64,000 nt of DNA from the IMG/VR virus record IMGVR_UViG_3300023179_000009, positions 372,001-436,000 of that record; one strand, 5' to 3'. The translations under genes and the position numbers were made by a program. A model generated the notes under the pieces. The model had not been told where the DNA came from. It worked only from the letters and a program-made list of their open reading frames with translations, and searched no databases. The DNA is from a virus. This document shows, piece after piece, positions 41,068-48,772 of this stretch; position 1 is the first letter of the stretch, and each line of letters opens with the position of its first letter.

Positions 41068-41634
41068 ATGTCTGTATTTAAGGTAAAATTAAACAACGGA
41101 ACTCAAGGAAAATTAGATGTAAATCCCGATACAGGGACAGCTTTTGGCGTTTCCAAACAAAGACAAATTTATGTGGCTGGCCCCAATAGAAAAATAAGGA
41201 TATTGAGCGATGGCGATGTCTTCACCGATTGCAACTATTGGAAAAGATTCACAAAAGAGTTCATGGGCGAAGAAAATGCTTTTATAGAGATAGTCAGCGA
41301 TGACGGCTCTGTTTATAGCGAAAATTCAGCGGAAAACACCTACTCGGTTGGGAACACTTTAAGCGTAACAACGTCTTTTTCTGCAACTGCTATTGATTTT
41401 ATGGATCTTTATGGTTCTCCAGCAAGGTTCTTAATGGTTCAAAATATAGATAATTCAACACCCGTAACCGGCGAATTAAATGGAAATTCTGGAGTTACAT
41501 TTATTGTCGGCCCTGGCGAGACAATGATGTTCAATCAGGGTGACGTTGTTATTACTAAATTAAGATTAAAAAGTGACTCAGGAAATCCTAGTGTTACATA
41601 TATCGCATCGGTCAGGAGTGACTGCAAAACTTGA
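41068..41634 (+). CDS. Probable virion decoration or minor structural protein, 188 aa
   Basis: Strand-rich, acidic, with two domain-like halves: an N-terminal part with YVAGPNRKIRILSDGDVFTD, and a C-terminal jelly-roll-like part from about 90 (LSVTTSFSATAIDF) with VTFIVGPGETMMFNQGD. AGAGG is 5 bases before ATG. No enzyme motif. Head or tail decoration is inferred from composition and setting. Confidence 0.55.
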   Translation: MSVFKVKLNNGTQGKLDVNPDTGTAFGVSKQRQIYVAGPNRKIRILSDGDVFTDCNYWKRFTKEFMGEENAFIEIVSDDGSVYSENSAENTYSVGNTLSVTTSFSATAIDFMDLYGSPARFLMVQNIDNSTPVTGELNGNSGVTFIVGPGETMMFNQGDVVITKLRLKSDSGNPSVTYIASVRSDCKT

Positions 41635-41649: not shown

Positions 41650-42627
41650 ATGGGGATTGTAAAAAAAAATATTAAAAATTTAAGACCAGAGAAGTTTAAG
41701 AAGAAATCTAATTTATTAAATTATTTAGAAAATAGAAATAAAATATTAATAATAAGAAGTGTTGGTGGATTGGGCGACATACTCATGCATCGAATGATGT
41801 TTGAAGATTTTAAAAATTTATCTCAAGATTTAGAAGTTCATTTTTGTTGCCCCAGTTATTATCACGACGCAATAAAAGATCACCCTTTTATTGATAAAAT
41901 TTTGGATTGTCAACAAGTTAACAAAAATGATTATGTAATTCATTATAACACATCAACTGTTTGCGGCAGAACAGAGATGGATAATTTGCCTAATAAATCG
42001 CCTCATAGAAGTGATATTTGGGCAAATTATTGTGGGGTTGAGTTAAAAAATCATGACATGCATATAAACTTGAGCGATTGGGAAAAAAACATTGCTTATG
42101 ATTTGCTAAAGTCAATCAATAAAAAATCAATCAAAAGCGTTGCAATATGCCCAATCTCAGCCATGGTGAACAAAAATTTATTGCCAAATCAAGTTTGTTT
42201 TTTAGTAGATTTCTTGAAAAAACAAAATTTGTTTCCTTTTTGTTTGCATCATAAAATTATAGATTATTGTGAAAAAAATAGAATTCCATCGATAATAGAA
42301 CCAAGAATTAGAATTTGGATGGCTATTTTGCAACAAGTTGATTATGTCATAAGTGTAGACACTGCTGCTTTTCATTGTGCTGGAGGGTTAAAAAAGCCCC
42401 TAACGGGGATTTTTAGTTTCATAGACGGAAAAGTATATGGAAAATATTTTGATTTTGTTCTGCTTCAAAAACACAAAGAAGATGACACAAATTGGACTTG
42501 CGGCCCTTGTTATGATTGGTGCAAGTGCCCAAAAACTTCTCTTAGTCCAAAGCCCTGCATAACAGATATTTCTGAAGAAATGTTAACTGGAGCAGTAAAT
42601 AGGATGCTAGAAAAATGGCCGTTATAA
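41650..42627 (+). CDS. GT9-like glycosyltransferase (heptosyltransferase type), 325 aa
   Basis: Layout of the ADP-heptose:LPS heptosyltransferase family (GT9, GT-B fold): ILIIRSVGGLGDILMHRMMF (about 32-51) with the GxGD loop, EVHFCCPSYYH, DHPFIDKILDC, and the donor-site stretch VISVDTAAFHCAGGLKKP (about 234-251). An unusual cysteine-rich stretch follows (CGPCYDWCKCP). Such enzymes add sugars, usually heptose or related, to acceptor glycans. No signal peptide. One of several glycosyltransferases in this phage. Confidence 0.7.
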   Translation: MGIVKKNIKNLRPEKFKKKSNLLNYLENRNKILIIRSVGGLGDILMHRMMFEDFKNLSQDLEVHFCCPSYYHDAIKDHPFIDKILDCQQVNKNDYVIHYNTSTVCGRTEMDNLPNKSPHRSDIWANYCGVELKNHDMHINLSDWEKNIAYDLLKSINKKSIKSVAICPISAMVNKNLLPNQVCFLVDFLKKQNLFPFCLHHKIIDYCEKNRIPSIIEPRIRIWMAILQQVDYVISVDTAAFHCAGGLKKPLTGIFSFIDGKVYGKYFDFVLLQKHKEDDTNWTCGPCYDWCKCPKTSLSPKPCITDISEEMLTGAVNRMLEKWPL

Positions 42628-42649: not shown

Positions 42650-42862
42650 ATGCCTCAACTCATAAAACCGAGCACAAAAGTAAAAATTATTCCTAAAGAT
42701 GGAGAGATTGAGATTACTCTTAATATAAACATAAATCTTGATGGAAAAGTTTCTGCTATTGCGGACAATGCTGATGTTTTGGTTGATGAAGAAGAAAAAG
42801 TTCCTCATATTATTCCGGATTTTTCTTCGGGTTTAAAATTAAATTTTGGGAAAAATGCATGA
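42650..42862 (+). CDS. Small acidic protein, 70 aa
   Basis: Short strand-rich protein (VKIIPKDGEIEITLNIN) with an acidic tail. AAGGG is about 9 bases upstream. No family recognised. Its end overlaps the endonuclease start (ATGA). Confidence 0.6.
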   Translation: MPQLIKPSTKVKIIPKDGEIEITLNININLDGKVSAIADNADVLVDEEEKVPHIIPDFSSGLKLNFGKNA

Positions 42863-43626
42863 TTGGAATTTACGCAATAAAAAATAAATTTAATAACAAA
42901 CTTTATATCGGACAGAGCGTGTCGATTAAATGTAGATGGATGAATCACAGATCAGATTTGGCCACGGGTAGGCATCCAAATAAACATTTGCTAAAATCTT
43001 ATAAGAAATATGGAGAAGATTGTTTTGAATTTTTGATTTTAGAAAATTGTTTAAAAAGAGATTTGGGGAAAAAAGAAGAAGAGTGGATAAAAAAATTTCC
43101 TAAAAAACAACTATACAATATAAACTATAACATTGTAGATTTAAATGGAGAAAAAAATCCTTTTTTTGGTAAAAAGCACAAAAAAGAATCCAAAAAGAAA
43201 ATGTCAATTTGGAAAAAACAAAATTATATAGGTGCTAAAAATCCTAATTTTGGCAAAAAATGGACAAAAGAACAAAAAACCAAAAATGTTTTAAAAAATT
43301 CAAACACCAAATTAAAAAAAACTGATGTTCTGGAAATTAAAAAATTATTAATAGATGGCAAATTAGAAGATAAAGAAATTGCTAAAAAATTTAAAATTGG
43401 AAGATCCGTGGTAACAAGAATTTCTAACGGAACAAGGTGGTCCCATGTAACAGGGGGAAGAGTAATAAAAAAAGAAAGGAGAGGTTTAAGGAACATAGGT
43501 GTTAAGAGGTCAGAGAAAACAAAACAAAAAATCAGAAATTCTATTTTGGGCATCAAAAGATCTGAAGAAACAAAACGCAAAATAAGTTTATCTAAACAAA
43601 AAAAGAAGGAGAAAAAATGTCAATAG
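42859..43626 (+). CDS. Free-standing GIY-YIG homing endonuclease with NUMOD3 repeats, 255 aa
   Basis: The N-terminal GIY-YIG nuclease domain has GIYAIKN at 3-9 and LYIGQS at 16-21, then the conserved Arg in a CRWMNHR segment and a Glu-rich helix. NUMOD3-type DNA-binding repeats follow (NPFFGKKHKKESKKKMS; NPNFGKKWTKEQ; GVKRSEKTKQKIR; GIKRSEETKRKIS). A helix-turn-helix lies between (about 155-193). This is a SegA-type mobile gene: it cuts a related genome lacking it and is copied in by repair. It overlaps both neighbours, so it sits between genes without an intron. Confidence 0.9.
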   Translation: MIGIYAIKNKFNNKLYIGQSVSIKCRWMNHRSDLATGRHPNKHLLKSYKKYGEDCFEFLILENCLKRDLGKKEEEWIKKFPKKQLYNINYNIVDLNGEKNPFFGKKHKKESKKKMSIWKKQNYIGAKNPNFGKKWTKEQKTKNVLKNSNTKLKKTDVLEIKKLLIDGKLEDKEIAKKFKIGRSVVTRISNGTRWSHVTGGRVIKKERRGLRNIGVKRSEKTKQKIRNSILGIKRSEETKRKISLSKQKKKEKKCQ

Positions 43627-44630
43627 GAGCGGATGTCGGGACTTACAATCTGGTTTGCTGTAAAAGAAATGACAATGGGGATTTTGTTTACAAACGTGAA
43701 GTGAATGCTTTTTTGTCAATGCCTCTTGATAATGATTTTGTTTTTAACATGATGAAGCAGGCTGGCGTTCCACTTATTCACAGGGAAGACGCAAACATAG
43801 CATACGCTCTTGGCGAAGCAGCCGTTAATATGGCCTACACAATGACTCAATTAGAATTAAAAAGACCAATGAAAGATGGTTGTGTTAATCCGAAAGAACA
43901 AGATGCTTTTCAAATTATGAATATTATGATCCACAATCTTTTGGATGAAATAAAGCACGATAAGGAAGTGCTAGTTTACTGTGTTCCCGCAAATGCTATA
44001 AACGAACAAACTGATGCTGATTATCATCAAAAGATTGTTGAAGCAATATTTAAAGCATACAAGTCAGAGAAAGGTTTTACCGTAGATGCGAGACCAATAA
44101 ATGAAGCAATGGCTCTTGTTTATGCCGAACTAAAGGACAAGATGTTCACTGGAATTGGGGTTTCATGCGGAGCAGGCTTAGTTAATGTTGCATTCAGTCT
44201 TTTTGGTGCTCCTGTTTTCAGTTTTGCTCTCGCCAATTCGGGGGATTGGATAGACAAACAAGCCGCTTTGGCAACAGGCGAGACGATAGCCTTTATTAAT
44301 AAAACAAAAACAAAAATAGACTTAGACAAAGAACCCGCCAATTTAGTGGAACGTGCAATAATCACTCAATATCAATTAATGATTGAAAAAACAGTGGGTG
44401 GTATCAAAAAAGGTCTGGAAAATAATAAAGAAAAAAATGCAAAGTTAGATGCACCTGTTGATTTTGTTCTTGCTGGGGGAACGTCTTCTCCTCCAGGTTT
44501 TGCGAAAATGTTTGAAAAACTTTTAAGACAAACAAAACTTCCGATAGAAATAGGCCGTGTTATTCATCCAAGCGACCCATTATTTAGTGTTGCTCGTGGT
44601 TGCTTGGTGGCCGCTGAAAATATAAAGTAA
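43617..44630 (+). CDS. Actin-like ATPase (ParM/MreB/Hsp70 superfamily), 337 aa
   Basis: The actin-fold nucleotide motifs are visible in order: phosphate-1 ADVGTYNLVCC (5-15), connect-1 RPINEAMALVYAELKD (159-174), phosphate-2 GIGVSCGAGLVNVAF (179-193), and adenosine loop VLAGGTSSPPGF (284-295). ANSGDWIDKQAA (206-217) matches the GGDxxD region of the superfamily. Length matches ParM and archaeal or phage actins. Such proteins form ATP-driven filaments that move or segregate DNA or position structures. The first bases overlap the homing endonuclease, and the next gene starts 7 bases after its stop, suggesting a two-gene unit. Confidence 0.85.
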   Translation: MSIGADVGTYNLVCCKRNDNGDFVYKREVNAFLSMPLDNDFVFNMMKQAGVPLIHREDANIAYALGEAAVNMAYTMTQLELKRPMKDGCVNPKEQDAFQIMNIMIHNLLDEIKHDKEVLVYCVPANAINEQTDADYHQKIVEAIFKAYKSEKGFTVDARPINEAMALVYAELKDKMFTGIGVSCGAGLVNVAFSLFGAPVFSFALANSGDWIDKQAALATGETIAFINKTKTKIDLDKEPANLVERAIITQYQLMIEKTVGGIKKGLENNKEKNAKLDAPVDFVLAGGTSSPPGFAKMFEKLLRQTKLPIEIGRVIHPSDPLFSVARGCLVAAENIK

Positions 44631-44637
44631 AGGTAAA

Positions 44638-45129
44638 ATGACTGTTCTAAAATTTGTAAATGATTTAGGTGTCGCCGCTTATGTGTTAATGCACGGCTAC
44701 ACTGTTGTTGGCAAAAAAGCAAAATCTATTTATTTTGAGTGTGAAAATATTGAATCATCTAAAGAATTTGATAAATTAGTTTTGGAATATCAACCACCAA
44801 ATGATTTTTACACATTTGACTCTTGTCTCATGTTTTTGAAAAAAATCAACGAAAGTGTTCCAGAGGTTATCGATGATAGAATACATAAGACTGTCGGTGA
44901 TCTTGGTGTGGCGGCTTATTTGTTGATGCATGAATATAGACCTAAAAGTATGGGCTTAAAGGTTATCGGCAAAAAAGGAAAATATGTATATTTCGAACAC
45001 CCCGAGGGTCGTGGCGACGACTTTGAAAGATTGAGCTACCAATATCTGCCTAGTCAATTCCAAGTTTATGATTCTAATTTGATGGCTTTGAAAAAAATTG
45101 GCGAACATATGCCGAAGAATAGACCTTAA
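44638..45129 (+). CDS. Two-repeat protein (DUF5659-like) beside the actin-like ATPase, 163 aa
   Basis: The protein consists of two copies of one domain of about 70 residues: LGVAAYVLMHGY near residue 10 and LGVAAYLLMHEY near 90, each followed by a GKK-KxxYFE strand (KSIYFE; KYVYFE), a YxF or Y-strand, a helix and an LxxLKKI end. This matches the pattern I know as DUF5659, a phage domain of unknown function. AAAGGT precedes the ATG. As the partner gene of the actin-like ATPase it could be an adaptor to DNA or to another protein, which is inference. Confidence 0.75.
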   Translation: MTVLKFVNDLGVAAYVLMHGYTVVGKKAKSIYFECENIESSKEFDKLVLEYQPPNDFYTFDSCLMFLKKINESVPEVIDDRIHKTVGDLGVAAYLLMHEYRPKSMGLKVIGKKGKYVYFEHPEGRGDDFERLSYQYLPSQFQVYDSNLMALKKIGEHMPKNRP

Positions 45130-45140
45130 GAAAAGTTTTC

Positions 45141-45170
45141 TTTCGATATATATATTTAGAAATATCGAAA
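45141..45170 (+). promoter_or_regulatory. Hairpin just before the ribosome-binding site of the 1197-aa gene
   Basis: TTTCGATAT (45141-45149) pairs perfectly with ATATCGAAA (45162-45170), loop of 12 bases containing TATAT and TTTAGA. AAGGTG follows directly and ATG is at 45179. It may be an operator, a translational control hairpin or an mRNA end. No U-run follows, so it is not a normal terminator. Confidence 0.45.
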
Positions 45171-45178
45171 AGGTGACC

Positions 45179-48100
45179 ATGAAAAGTTTTATAGAGTATA
45201 GAAAAAACAAATTGCTTAAAGGCAATAAATTAAATATTCAAGAATCTATTATTGAATGCTTTGATCTTTTAAAATTAGATCTATTAAAATCTATAAAATT
45301 ACCGGATATCCTCTCTGAGAACACTAGAGTCAAAGCAATCACTGAATCTGCTTATGAAGTTTGTAAAAAAGAAGATTATCAAGACAATAAACAAATAATA
45401 GAATTAATAATTTCCGAATTTAAAAATAATTTTTGGTCACAATTGATATCGGAGGCGACTGCAACCGCTGAAAAAGAACCTAAGGTTACTGTTGATGATT
45501 TAAAAAAACAAATGTCGGATGAAATAGACTCGATGGTTGGCGAATTAAAACAATTAGTTTCTCGCTCATTATCTGCCTCAAGAACAACAACCGGAAATGA
45601 CGTTGAGGATGCAACAACAAGTTCAACCGAACCCGGTGAAGAAAATTCACCAACACCCAAACTTACCGCAAATCAAGCAAAATACATAAGTGATTTGTAT
45701 CAAAAATTAGGAAGAAACCCTCCGTCTGATCTTGATAAACTAAATCCTTTACAAGCCAGTAGGCTTATAGATCAATTAAAAAAACAAATAGGAGCGAGAA
45801 CAGGATCGCCTGCTCCATCTTCGTCTCAATTCAACGCCAATCAAACGACTAGCGGGGATGCTGGTGGTGAAGATTTTTCATTAGACGAACCTACTTCTTC
45901 GCCAGCCAGTTCTTCTCCACTTCCTAGTCAACAGGTTATGAATGGAAGATATGTTTTGCCAAATGATTGGAAAAGCAAATACGGAACAAGATATGGCACT
46001 GAGAGACCGACATATCCTGACGGGTTTAAACCAGCACCATATGGACACATGAGACCGAGCGATGGTTGGCTAGGTGGTTTGAAAAGAACAATTTGGGATC
46101 CTGCTACCGGCTGGCTAAAAAATAAAACCAGGAACTTTAGAAGACGCTGGCACAGAGATGAGTTTAGAGAACATTTTATTAATTTAGAAAATATATTCTT
46201 GGAAAATGCTGTGGAGATCATGAGTGATATTGACACATGGACCACAAGATTGAAAGATATTGTTTTAAATAAATACTTTGATCAAATTAAAAACTTTTTA
46301 AGTGGAGATGTTCAATCTTTGCCAAAAACCAAAGATTCCGTCGCCGGGAAAACTGGCGATGTTAGTCCAAGACAACAATCGCCCGCTGTTGATGCTGGAT
46401 CTGGTAAAGTTGATGACGACGATGTTGAATACGAAGACGATAATAAGGCCGAAGGCCCCACAGGTGATGTTCAACCCAAGAAATCAAATGATGCTTCCGT
46501 CGATTCCAATATTCAAAAAACTGATTTTACAAAGAAGGAAAGCATATCTGAAGGTGCAAATTTATTGAAGCTGACTTATAGGGACGATAAATTTTACACT
46601 TCTAATTCTAATGAAGAATTAGAGGGAAGTGTTTTGAGAAATTTTTTAATCAGGCAACTTTTAAAGATTTTTCAAAAAGATCAAAAATTACAAGATGAAG
46701 TTTGGAAATCAAAAGATCTAAAAGAAAGAGATGAAGCCGAAGCAAGGTTGGATAAAATTATTGCTAGCTCAATCAAAAGACCCACGGATTTTGAACTACA
46801 AATAATAAATGAATGGCTTGGTAAATTTGAATCTATTGCATTAACCGGCTATAGCAATAAAAAAACAAATTTTCCTTTAATTTTGGCATATTTCAAATGG
46901 CATAAAAAAGAAAAGTATGGGTTAGATATTAAAACCAATAAAAGAGAACCTAGAAAAACCGAGGGCGATGACTCTGGTGAGGTTGCAGCAAAAAAACAAG
47001 ATTTAACACCTGAGCAAAAAAAAGATTTGGAAGAATTCAATAGATTTAAAAAAGAATTCCCTAAAGCTTATAAAAAGTTAATTGATAGTTTCGAAGGCGG
47101 AACCGAAGAGGAGCGGATTAAAGATACCGAAGTTTGGGTTTTAGAGGCGGGCTTAGGAGAAGAATCTGAATTAAAACAAATTATTGAATTTCTAAAAAAA
47201 CAATCAGGTGAAGAGTCACAAGAATCAGGTGAAGAGTCACAAGAATCAGGTGAAGAGTCACAAGAATCAGGTGAAGAGTCACAAGAATTAAAAAAAAAAT
47301 CCCTAACTGATGAGGAATTTATTTTTAGTTTGCAAAAAAAATGGTTTGAGAACAATAAGTCAACATTAGATTTAAGAGATGTTTTAACAAACAAATTCAT
47401 TGACAGCGGGAAAGGGCCGCTAACATTAGATGATCTCAAAAATATAGTTAGTGATTTTGATTTGGAAGACAAAGATCAAATTGAAGAAGCTAGGCAAAAA
47501 GTTATGGATGCTGTTAGAAAGCACCCTATAACTTTGGAAAGAAAAAAAGTAAATAGAGATCAATTAAAAAAAACTAAAGACTCAGATGTAGTTGACCCCG
47601 AAACTACGACAATAAAAATAAATTCAAACAAAGAAGAAGAGAACCAGATTAAAGATGAACTGGACGAGAATGAAGTTTATCAAAGAATTTATGAAAAATA
47701 TCAAAATTATCTAATTAGCAAAGGCTCAAAAGGAGATGATTTAAGAAATGGCCTAGATTTGTTTGACGAAAAAATTATACAAGATATTTTATTGAAAGGC
47801 AAAGATAAAATTGAAGACATTCTATCTACGCAAGAAAGTCTTTTAGACAATTTGATTGAAAAAATCAAAAAAGATCCCGTACCCGAAAATTCGGATGTGC
47901 CCGAGGAGTTAGAGTCTTCTTTTGAAAAATTAGAAAGAGACACGCAGTACAAAGATTTGACAAAGCAATATGTTGATTCGTTGAGAGGTCAAGGAAAAGA
48001 TGAAGAAACTATAAAAAAAGAATTGCATAAAAAAACATTAAAACATGCAAAAGAAATGTTTGATCAAGAAAAAACAATAAAACAAATTGTTCAAGATTAT

Positions 48101-48772
48101 GAAAAAGAATTGGGCATAATCCCCGAAGAAAGTCCAGATAAAACTAAATCTTCGCAAAAGTCAGATTCTCAAGAAGAAATCAATAGGATCGCAAGAGATT
48201 CAGGGGAAATTACTCGAACATCTTCGGGAGATAATGAGGGAACAACTAAATTAGGTGAAGAAAAAAATATAGAAAAAACTATAAAAGACATAACAAAACA
48301 TGTTAAGTTGCAGGGCGGCAGTTTGTCTCTAAGAGATGGGAAACTTTTAATTAAAAACAGAGATAAATTAGATAAAAAAACTCAAAATTTAATTAAAAAA
48401 CACAGGGAAGAAATAATAGATTTTTTAACCCCAAAAGAAACAAGATCTCAGAAGACATCGCCAGAAGAAGCAATTGAAAAAAAAGTTAAGCCCGATGATA
48501 AAAAACTTGAAGAAATCCCTGAGAGATTAAAAAATATAGATGGATACGATTCATTGAGACAAGAAATAATAAAAATAATTGAGGGCAGCAATAATCAAGT
48601 GATGCGTAATATTTTAATGAGAAAAGAGTCAGAGTGGCTGGATTCAGATTTGGATGACAATCAAATAATAAAAAATTTAAGAGAATTAAAAAATCGTTTT
48701 GAGTCTCAAACAAGAAAAACTGAGGGTTTTTTGGGGATATTAAAAAGATTTAAAGAGTTAGTTAATTCATAA
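45179..48772 (+). CDS. Very large charged, partly disordered protein, 1197 aa
   Basis: No family recognised. N-terminus MKSFIEYRKNKLLKGNKLNI is a helix like those of other small proteins here. Composition: S/T/P/D-rich linkers (about 120-200 and 230-270), a conserved-looking region near 255-340 with WKSKYGTRYGTERPTYPDG and an aromatic/glycine run, and then long K/E-rich helices to the end. Four copies of SGEESQE occur at about 676-703. No signal peptide or membrane segment. The start at 45179 is supported by AAGGTG and is preferred to the in-frame 45098. Possible roles are a scaffold, filament partner or internal protein; none is shown. Confidence 0.7.
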   Translation: MKSFIEYRKNKLLKGNKLNIQESIIECFDLLKLDLLKSIKLPDILSENTRVKAITESAYEVCKKEDYQDNKQIIELIISEFKNNFWSQLISEATATAEKEPKVTVDDLKKQMSDEIDSMVGELKQLVSRSLSASRTTTGNDVEDATTSSTEPGEENSPTPKLTANQAKYISDLYQKLGRNPPSDLDKLNPLQASRLIDQLKKQIGARTGSPAPSSSQFNANQTTSGDAGGEDFSLDEPTSSPASSSPLPSQQVMNGRYVLPNDWKSKYGTRYGTERPTYPDGFKPAPYGHMRPSDGWLGGLKRTIWDPATGWLKNKTRNFRRRWHRDEFREHFINLENIFLENAVEIMSDIDTWTTRLKDIVLNKYFDQIKNFLSGDVQSLPKTKDSVAGKTGDVSPRQQSPAVDAGSGKVDDDDVEYEDDNKAEGPTGDVQPKKSNDASVDSNIQKTDFTKKESISEGANLLKLTYRDDKFYTSNSNEELEGSVLRNFLIRQLLKIFQKDQKLQDEVWKSKDLKERDEAEARLDKIIASSIKRPTDFELQIINEWLGKFESIALTGYSNKKTNFPLILAYFKWHKKEKYGLDIKTNKREPRKTEGDDSGEVAAKKQDLTPEQKKDLEEFNRFKKEFPKAYKKLIDSFEGGTEEERIKDTEVWVLEAGLGEESELKQIIEFLKKQSGEESQESGEESQESGEESQESGEESQELKKKSLTDEEFIFSLQKKWFENNKSTLDLRDVLTNKFIDSGKGPLTLDDLKNIVSDFDLEDKDQIEEARQKVMDAVRKHPITLERKKVNRDQLKKTKDSDVVDPETTTIKINSNKEEENQIKDELDENEVYQRIYEKYQNYLISKGSKGDDLRNGLDLFDEKIIQDILLKGKDKIEDILSTQESLLDNLIEKIKKDPVPENSDVPEELESSFEKLERDTQYKDLTKQYVDSLRGQGKDEETIKKELHKKTLKHAKEMFDQEKTIKQIVQDYEKELGIIPEESPDKTKSSQKSDSQEEINRIARDSGEITRTSSGDNEGTTKLGEEKNIEKTIKDITKHVKLQGGSLSLRDGKLLIKNRDKLDKKTQNLIKKHREEIIDFLTPKETRSQKTSPEEAIEKKVKPDDKKLEEIPERLKNIDGYDSLRQEIIKIIEGSNNQVMRNILMRKESEWLDSDLDDNQIIKNLRELKNRFESQTRKTEGFLGILKRFKELVNS
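47204..47287 (+). repeat. Four 21-base tandem repeats coding SGEESQE
   Basis: Units begin at 47204, 47225, 47246 and 47267 and look identical in DNA, each coding SGEESQE in frame. An acidic, serine-rich spacer that can change length in steps of seven residues. Confidence 0.9.

Follow-up and report, generated by a model that had tools for sequence, protein, structure and literature searches.

A predicted volactin-family actin and its tandem-domain partner, a conserved gene pair and candidate cytoskeletal module of huge phages

Phage-encoded cytoskeletons are known mainly as the PhuZ tubulin, which serves intracellular positioning in nucleus-forming jumbo phages, and as a few plasmid-like prophage actins. 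What might an actin-like gene do in a huge phage, coupled to a gene for a small duplicated-domain protein? We analysed a 64,000-nt stretch of DNA (the window) that corresponds to positions 372001-436000 of a 458,813-bp virus record; counts and scans of the phage's own genome cover 455.0 of its 458.8 kb (all but 455,001-458,813). In this record, matches to a T4 gp23-type capsid protein (E 9e-87) and to a prohead protease of the gp21 type (E 9e-26) identify the source as a T4-type jumbo phage, a giant bacterial virus. Baseplate-type genes lie upstream of the actin-like gene, at 24.7-26.7 kb of the window; PKD-domain proteins are encoded at 33.4-36.8 kb and the terminase large subunit at 59.3 kb. 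An earlier note had described an actin-like ATPase with a two-repeat partner, and both open reading frames were recovered at its positions: 43617-44630 encodes 337 aa and 44638-45129 encodes 163 aa (Table 1).

Table 1 Features of the volactin locus (window coordinates) and the evidence for each
Feature	Coordinates	Strand	Evidence
188-aa gene, probable first gene of the volactin transcription unit	41068..41634	+	TATATA at about 41041; synteny
Glycosyltransferase-9-like gene (weak), part of the conserved module	41650..42627	+	Pfam Glyco_transf_9 E 0.003, below cut-off; synteny
70-aa gene, conserved, upstream in the volactin module	42650..42862	+	Synteny; TATATA upstream in 11/58 relatives
GIY-YIG/NUMOD3 homing endonuclease	42859..43626	+	Pfam NUMOD3 E 1.8e-11, GIY-YIG E 1.4e-9
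Volactin-family actin-like ATPase (predicted), 337 aa	43617..44630	+	Pfam PF25216; AlphaFold2; Foldseek; conserved columns
Partner protein, 163 aa, two tandem DUF5659-like domains (about residues 1-78 and 79-160)	44638..45129	+	Self-similarity E 1e-18; AlphaFold2 pLDDT 94; 90/90 clade-A loci; DUF5659 link
Partner repeat 1	44638..44871	+	Self-comparison, AlphaFold2, alignment
Partner repeat 2, 7-residue insertion in beta-hairpin	44878..45117	+	Self-comparison, AlphaFold2, alignment
Gap between partner and acidic gene: TATATA promoter-like motif (45147-45154) inside an imperfect palindrome	45141..45170	.	Repeat scan, cross-locus comparison
Acidic low-complexity protein, 1197 aa, pI 5.3	45179..48772	+	T4 capsid-targeting-like N-terminus MKSFIEYRK...IQE

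The 337-aa protein passed the curated cut-off of the Pfam Volactin family (PF25216, 35 bits) over its full length, with residues 1-333 on model positions 1-321 (E 4.8e-69, 233.7 bits), and all seven members of sequence set A5 likewise matched at full length above the cut-off. MreB_Mbl was its second Pfam match (E 1e-6). The Pfam scan returned no ParM or AlpC family match, and a PHROGs search returned nothing for this protein, its partner or the acidic 1197-aa protein. By tblastn, proteins from haloarchaeal plasmids were 34.9% (Natrinema, E 8e-55) and 32.8% (Haloarcula, E 1e-50) identical to it at 99% coverage; identity to MreB was very low. The homologues on haloarchaeal megaplasmids (L100:6001-7035, L101:6001-7029) are annotated only as hypothetical proteins. 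AlphaFold2, run with 35 sequences of the same family, gave a model with pLDDT 89.8 and pTM 0.88, for which Foldseek ranked MamK, MreB and BeeR at the top (E 5e-15 to 2e-13, TM about 0.65-0.72). The modelled protein has an actin/MreB-type fold. The earlier note had named an Hsp70 or sugar kinase fold as the alternative; it was ruled out, the best Foldseek matches being MamK, MreB and actins.

That note had also reported all actin nucleotide motifs in order. The order stood: phosphate-1 GADVGTYN (residues 4-11), a connect-1 motif with NEAMA and a retained Glu163, phosphate-2 SCGAGLVN, a GDWID motif (residues 209-213) and adenosine motif AGGTSSPPGF (residues 286-295). The set was not intact, because the phosphate-2 Asp of MreB is replaced by Ser183 (MreB VVDIGGGTTE aligned with GVSCGAGLVN), so that ATP hydrolysis may be slow or altered. 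Ser occupies this position in every row of the phage and haloarchaeal alignments and is a hallmark of the volactin family, as seen here and not derived from the literature. At the same place, Ser183|Cys184, an in-frame insertion that starts CLCPGTKIYT, ends HN and contains Hint and LAGLIDADG domains interrupts volactin in L021-L023, L121, L122 and the metagenome-assembled genome (MAG) contig L030. These sequence features mark it as an intein, here placed within the phosphate-2 loop of an actin-fold protein; it is probably also present in the cut-off contigs L024-L026, and a group I intron in L021-L026 was accordingly dismissed.

The partner gene starts after a gap of 7 nt. Its two halves, each a domain of about 75 aa, are identical at 36 of 79 positions (46%, BLASTP E 1e-18), which bears out the duplication of a small domain proposed earlier. 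In the AlphaFold2 model (pLDDT 94), both halves follow the order beta-alpha-beta-beta-alpha-alpha and not a ribbon-helix-helix, so the earlier remark that this is not the usual ParR was also right. The protein is neutral (pI 7), and its invariant residues include D9, G11, A13, M18, F33, D61 and K68. Searches of PDB and BFVD found no confident match to the fold (best E 0.02 and 1e-3; TM to query about 0.3 or less), no DNA-binding fold was recognisable in it, and neither Pfam nor PHROGs returned a ParR match. A neutral protein with these structural results may not bind DNA. LAGLIDADG endonucleases showed a faint likeness to it, which was dismissed (TM 0.2).

The partner's likeness to DUF5659 (PF18903, gathering score 23.6 bits), suggested in the earlier note, was borne out only in part. 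The window protein itself has no Pfam PF18903 match, but 4 of 14 orthologues matched it weakly (best E 0.0015), and hhalign aligned the partner profile with DUF5659 proteins of a second phage clade (clade B, below) at 70% and E 4e-5; one of the latter passes the Pfam cut-off at E 1.6e-12. These data lend modest support to a distantly DUF5659-like partner. The similarity to the family is weak and repeated, and the partner of clade A, to which the window belongs, differs in being tandem, below the Pfam cut-off and an obligate neighbour of volactin. The literature searched contained no paper on DUF5659, a domain without assigned function. In 8 of 80 clade-B loci (L213, L216, L222, L228, L231, L232, L239, L242), canonical DUF5659 genes also occur at a distance of about 5-8 kb from the volactin gene, possibly a second link between DUF5659 and volactin.

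Phage volactins proved common in unannotated huge phages. IMG/VR held at least 207 loci matching a clade-A profile and at least 551 matching a broader profile, two sets that may overlap, and locus analyses used the best 80 of the 207 and the best 80 of the 551 matches. Clade A, clade B and the haloarchaeal sequences were separate in the tree, with clade B a single group (100/98) and clade A less firm (79/80); the haloarchaeal pair fell nearer clade B (93/79) in a tree with a very long MreB outgroup branch and an unsure root. A nucleotide search of phage records found no match. In the annotated phage collection, full-length matches to volactin came from two uncultured records, both unannotated, and from none of the cultured phages. 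GTDB contigs yielded only two volactin fragments, both in MAGs; of the MAG contigs, L030 looks like phage by its clade-A partner and intein. A PF00091 tubulin was found in none of ten volactin phage records (the window's own and nine others), a search that a divergent PhuZ could escape and that had no PhuZ-phage positive control.

In clade A, the pair was kept in every locus where its conservation, a check suggested by the earlier note, could be assessed. Among the 90 nonredundant loci with at least 700 nt beyond volactin, all 90 had the partner downstream on volactin's strand, tandem in 87 and single-copy in three (L020, L028, L082), and within 150 nt in 61. Conversely, among 73 loci retrieved by means of the partner, 72 had volactin upstream of it; in the remaining one, only 28 nt separate the contig edge from the partner. 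Where the spacer is wide it encodes other genes, including the terminase large subunit in L003, L006, L011, L022, L111, L114 and L120. The order 188-aa gene, GT9-like gene, 70-aa gene, volactin and partner is syntenic in most relatives. The GIY-YIG/NUMOD3 gene overlaps the volactin start by 10 nt and is a mobile passenger, present in L001 and L007-L012, absent from L002-L006 and missing from many relatives.

Clade B has a different setting. In the three clade-B records examined closely (L029, L182, L197), volactin is flanked by neck/tail-type genes on one side and a giant gene resembling a tail sheath on the other; the sheath assignment is our own reading, which Pfam did not confirm for L182. 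Upstream, a protein of about 200-240 aa that can be recognised as related in 60 of 75 loci ends at the volactin start or shortly before it; it is a candidate partner differing from that of clade A. It has a short conserved N-terminal domain, DLGI..G....S.DL..L...G.V (L175-L254, e.g. L182:7241-7963). Several different proteins of L222 (5359, 9051, 15427 and others) have the N-terminal peptide M(R/K)RxASEIIRxLExRIARLExQA in common, which in clade-B phages may be a shared signal for targeting or packaging. Gp23 was present in all seven clade-A records tested (the window's own and six others) and detected in none of the three clade-B records tested.

Promoter-like motifs suggest the limits of the module. 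Of 80 loci, 59 had TATATA in the 60 nt that follow the partner stop, against 1.8 expected; among the 20 loci above 42% GC the figure was 19, against 0.24 expected. The motif was also enriched upstream of the 188-aa gene (34/64 relatives, 2.0 expected) and of the 70-aa gene (11/58, 1.7 expected), and showed no enrichment before volactin (2/70, 2.2 expected) or the partner (0/66, 2.0 expected). Volactin and partner are therefore probably in one transcription unit; the simplest reading of these sequence signals is a unit running from the 188-aa (or 70-aa) gene through the partner, with a new one starting at the acidic protein. TATATA resembles TATAAATA, the late promoter of T4, which by analogy points to late timing. 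The motif stands upstream of 45 of 595 ORFs of the own genome, including genes without assigned timing, and is missing before the gp23 and terminase genes of that genome, so that its late-promoter role is not proven. It is almost missing from positions 265,395-358,794 of the record, though common elsewhere in the own genome. Only in those 93 kb, upstream of the window (loci L268-L272), is another motif found, TGATACCAACTAG / TAATACCAACTAG (core ATACCAACTA), with 98 copies, all on the + strand. Copies often overlap a small ORF's stop codon and often precede a G/C-rich hairpin that CTAG...CTAG closes, after which come a T-rich tail and the next small ORF.

The acidic protein does come next at 45179 (pI 5.3), as the earlier note had it, though it is probably a separate transcription unit with its own promoter. 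Together with several other proteins of this genome it starts MK(S/T)Fx(E/Q)(Y/F)..., and several of these have an (I/L)xE site within about 20 residues. The pattern resembles T4 capsid-targeting sequences, which gp21 cuts. Given this likeness and the gp21-type protease and gp23 of the genome, such proteins may be internal head proteins, and the 1197-aa protein is possibly an internal capsid protein. A 21-bp tandem repeat at 47199-47303 of the window encodes GEESQES units within it.

How do these findings compare with known systems? In Haloferax volcanii, where volactin was defined, it assembles into dynamic, ParM-like filaments spanning the cytoplasm, affects cell shape and is needed for timely disk formation (PMC10869688). 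VolA (HVO_2015) and its haloarchaeal homologues match PF25216 at full length and have the actin/MreB fold, and the haloarchaeal homologues compared show the same phosphate-2 variant, Ser-x-Gly-(Ala/Ser)-Gly, as phage volactin. They are archaeal, chromosomal or plasmid-borne, and linked to a cell-shape transition, whereas the phage proteins form two separate clades; no DUF5659-like partner was found in the two haloarchaeal plasmid neighbourhoods examined. The suggestion that the system is undescribed therefore fails for the actin family, named and studied in Haloferax (PMC10869688), and stands for its phage members, of which we found no description in the portion of the literature searched, subscription papers and preprints lying largely outside it.

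We propose, with about as much belief as doubt, that the locus encodes a phage actin cytoskeleton module, in which a late volactin filament and a filament-binding partner position phage DNA, capsids or the packaging/assembly site. Volactin would bind ATP and polymerise in the infected cell, as its fold and family suggest. Its co-transcribed tandem-domain partner would bind the filament as adaptor, crosslinker or regulator, as expected from the obligate genetic linkage and the duplication. The filament would then act in the late phase, with the positioning job that PhuZ performs: both would be phage-encoded positioning filaments, one of tubulin and the other of actin. Volactin keeps late-gene company, with TerL between the pair in relatives, baseplate genes upstream in the window and tail-type neighbours in clade B. 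Against this proposal count the Ser in place of the phosphate-2 Asp, the neutral partner with no recognisable DNA-binding fold, the ability of clade B to manage without the clade-A partner and the failure to find a centromere-like site.

The latter point bears on strict DNA segregation of the ParMRC/AlpAC type, the frame of the earlier note, in which volactin filaments would be coupled to a site on phage DNA through the partner bound there. An actin with an obligate, small, co-transcribed partner does recall ParM-ParR-parC, where an actin-like ATPase lies beside a small partner gene, and AlpC/AlpA of the Corynebacterium prophage CGP3, where a phage actin is co-transcribed with its adaptor. A duplicated domain could permit bivalent binding, and a palindrome, TTTCGATAT-12 nt-ATATCGAAA, lies directly 3' of the partner gene at 45141-45170. 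However, the palindrome is unique in the 455.0 kb of the own genome covered and is kept only in the near-identical L001 (volactin 99% identical); what is conserved across relatives is the TATATA motif. No direct-repeat or parC-like iteron array was found in 40.2-49.4 kb, including 45130-45178, where the earlier note had suggested looking for one; coding repeats and the one non-conserved palindrome were all that the scan returned. AlpA binds DNA repeats upstream of its own operon (PMC4446434), whereas no such repeats were found at the window locus, whose actin has no AlpC family match. Nor is that actin of the ParM family, belonging instead to Volactin. With a neutral partner that is not ribbon-helix-helix and can occur as a single domain (L020, L028, L082), the ParM frame did not hold, and we consider segregation of this kind improbable.

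Virion morphogenesis would need no long filaments, volactin and its partner serving as an ATP-driven neck, tail or packaging aid or as a particle component. The place of clade-B volactins between neck/tail-type genes and the giant sheath-like gene fits this, as do the position of TerL inside the pair in some phages of clade A and the T4 capsid-targeting-like N-terminus of the next gene's product in a phage with gp21 and gp23. Such a neighbourhood points to co-expression and not to incorporation, though, and volactin is related over its whole length to a filament-forming cytoskeletal family. As we also know of no actin-fold structural phage protein, this role seems unlikely. A tool directed at the host, with phage volactin co-assembling with or disturbing host MreB or division filaments and so remodelling the cell, is very improbable: the fold is MreB-like and Haloferax volactin influences cell shape (PMC10869688), but the conserved partner and the late-gene setting speak against it, as does sequence identity, which is 35% with cellular volactins and very low with MreB.

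More broadly, at least two lineages of huge phages, one gp23-type and one without detectable gp23, could use volactin-based intracellular organisation as a counterpart of the tubulin spindle, each with its own partner (the tandem DUF5659-like protein in clade A, the upstream coupled protein of about 200 aa in clade B), and the haloarchaeal and viral actins would share a common, possibly virus-related, ancestry; we put this forward tentatively, as a possibility that falls somewhat short of an even case. That hundreds of giant viruses encode volactin relatives suggests that many build their own actin skeleton in the infected cell. The absence of full-length volactin from the searched cultured phages may explain why it was overlooked earlier. 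An actin family previously characterised only in haloarchaea now extends to hundreds of contigs from the environment, among them records of huge phages as long as 619 kb, and in one phage lineage it has an obligate partner that provides the first suggested role for DUF5659-like domains. Phage volactins bear on the origin of archaeal volactin, and they are a candidate for how huge phages that lack tubulin arrange their DNA and virions.
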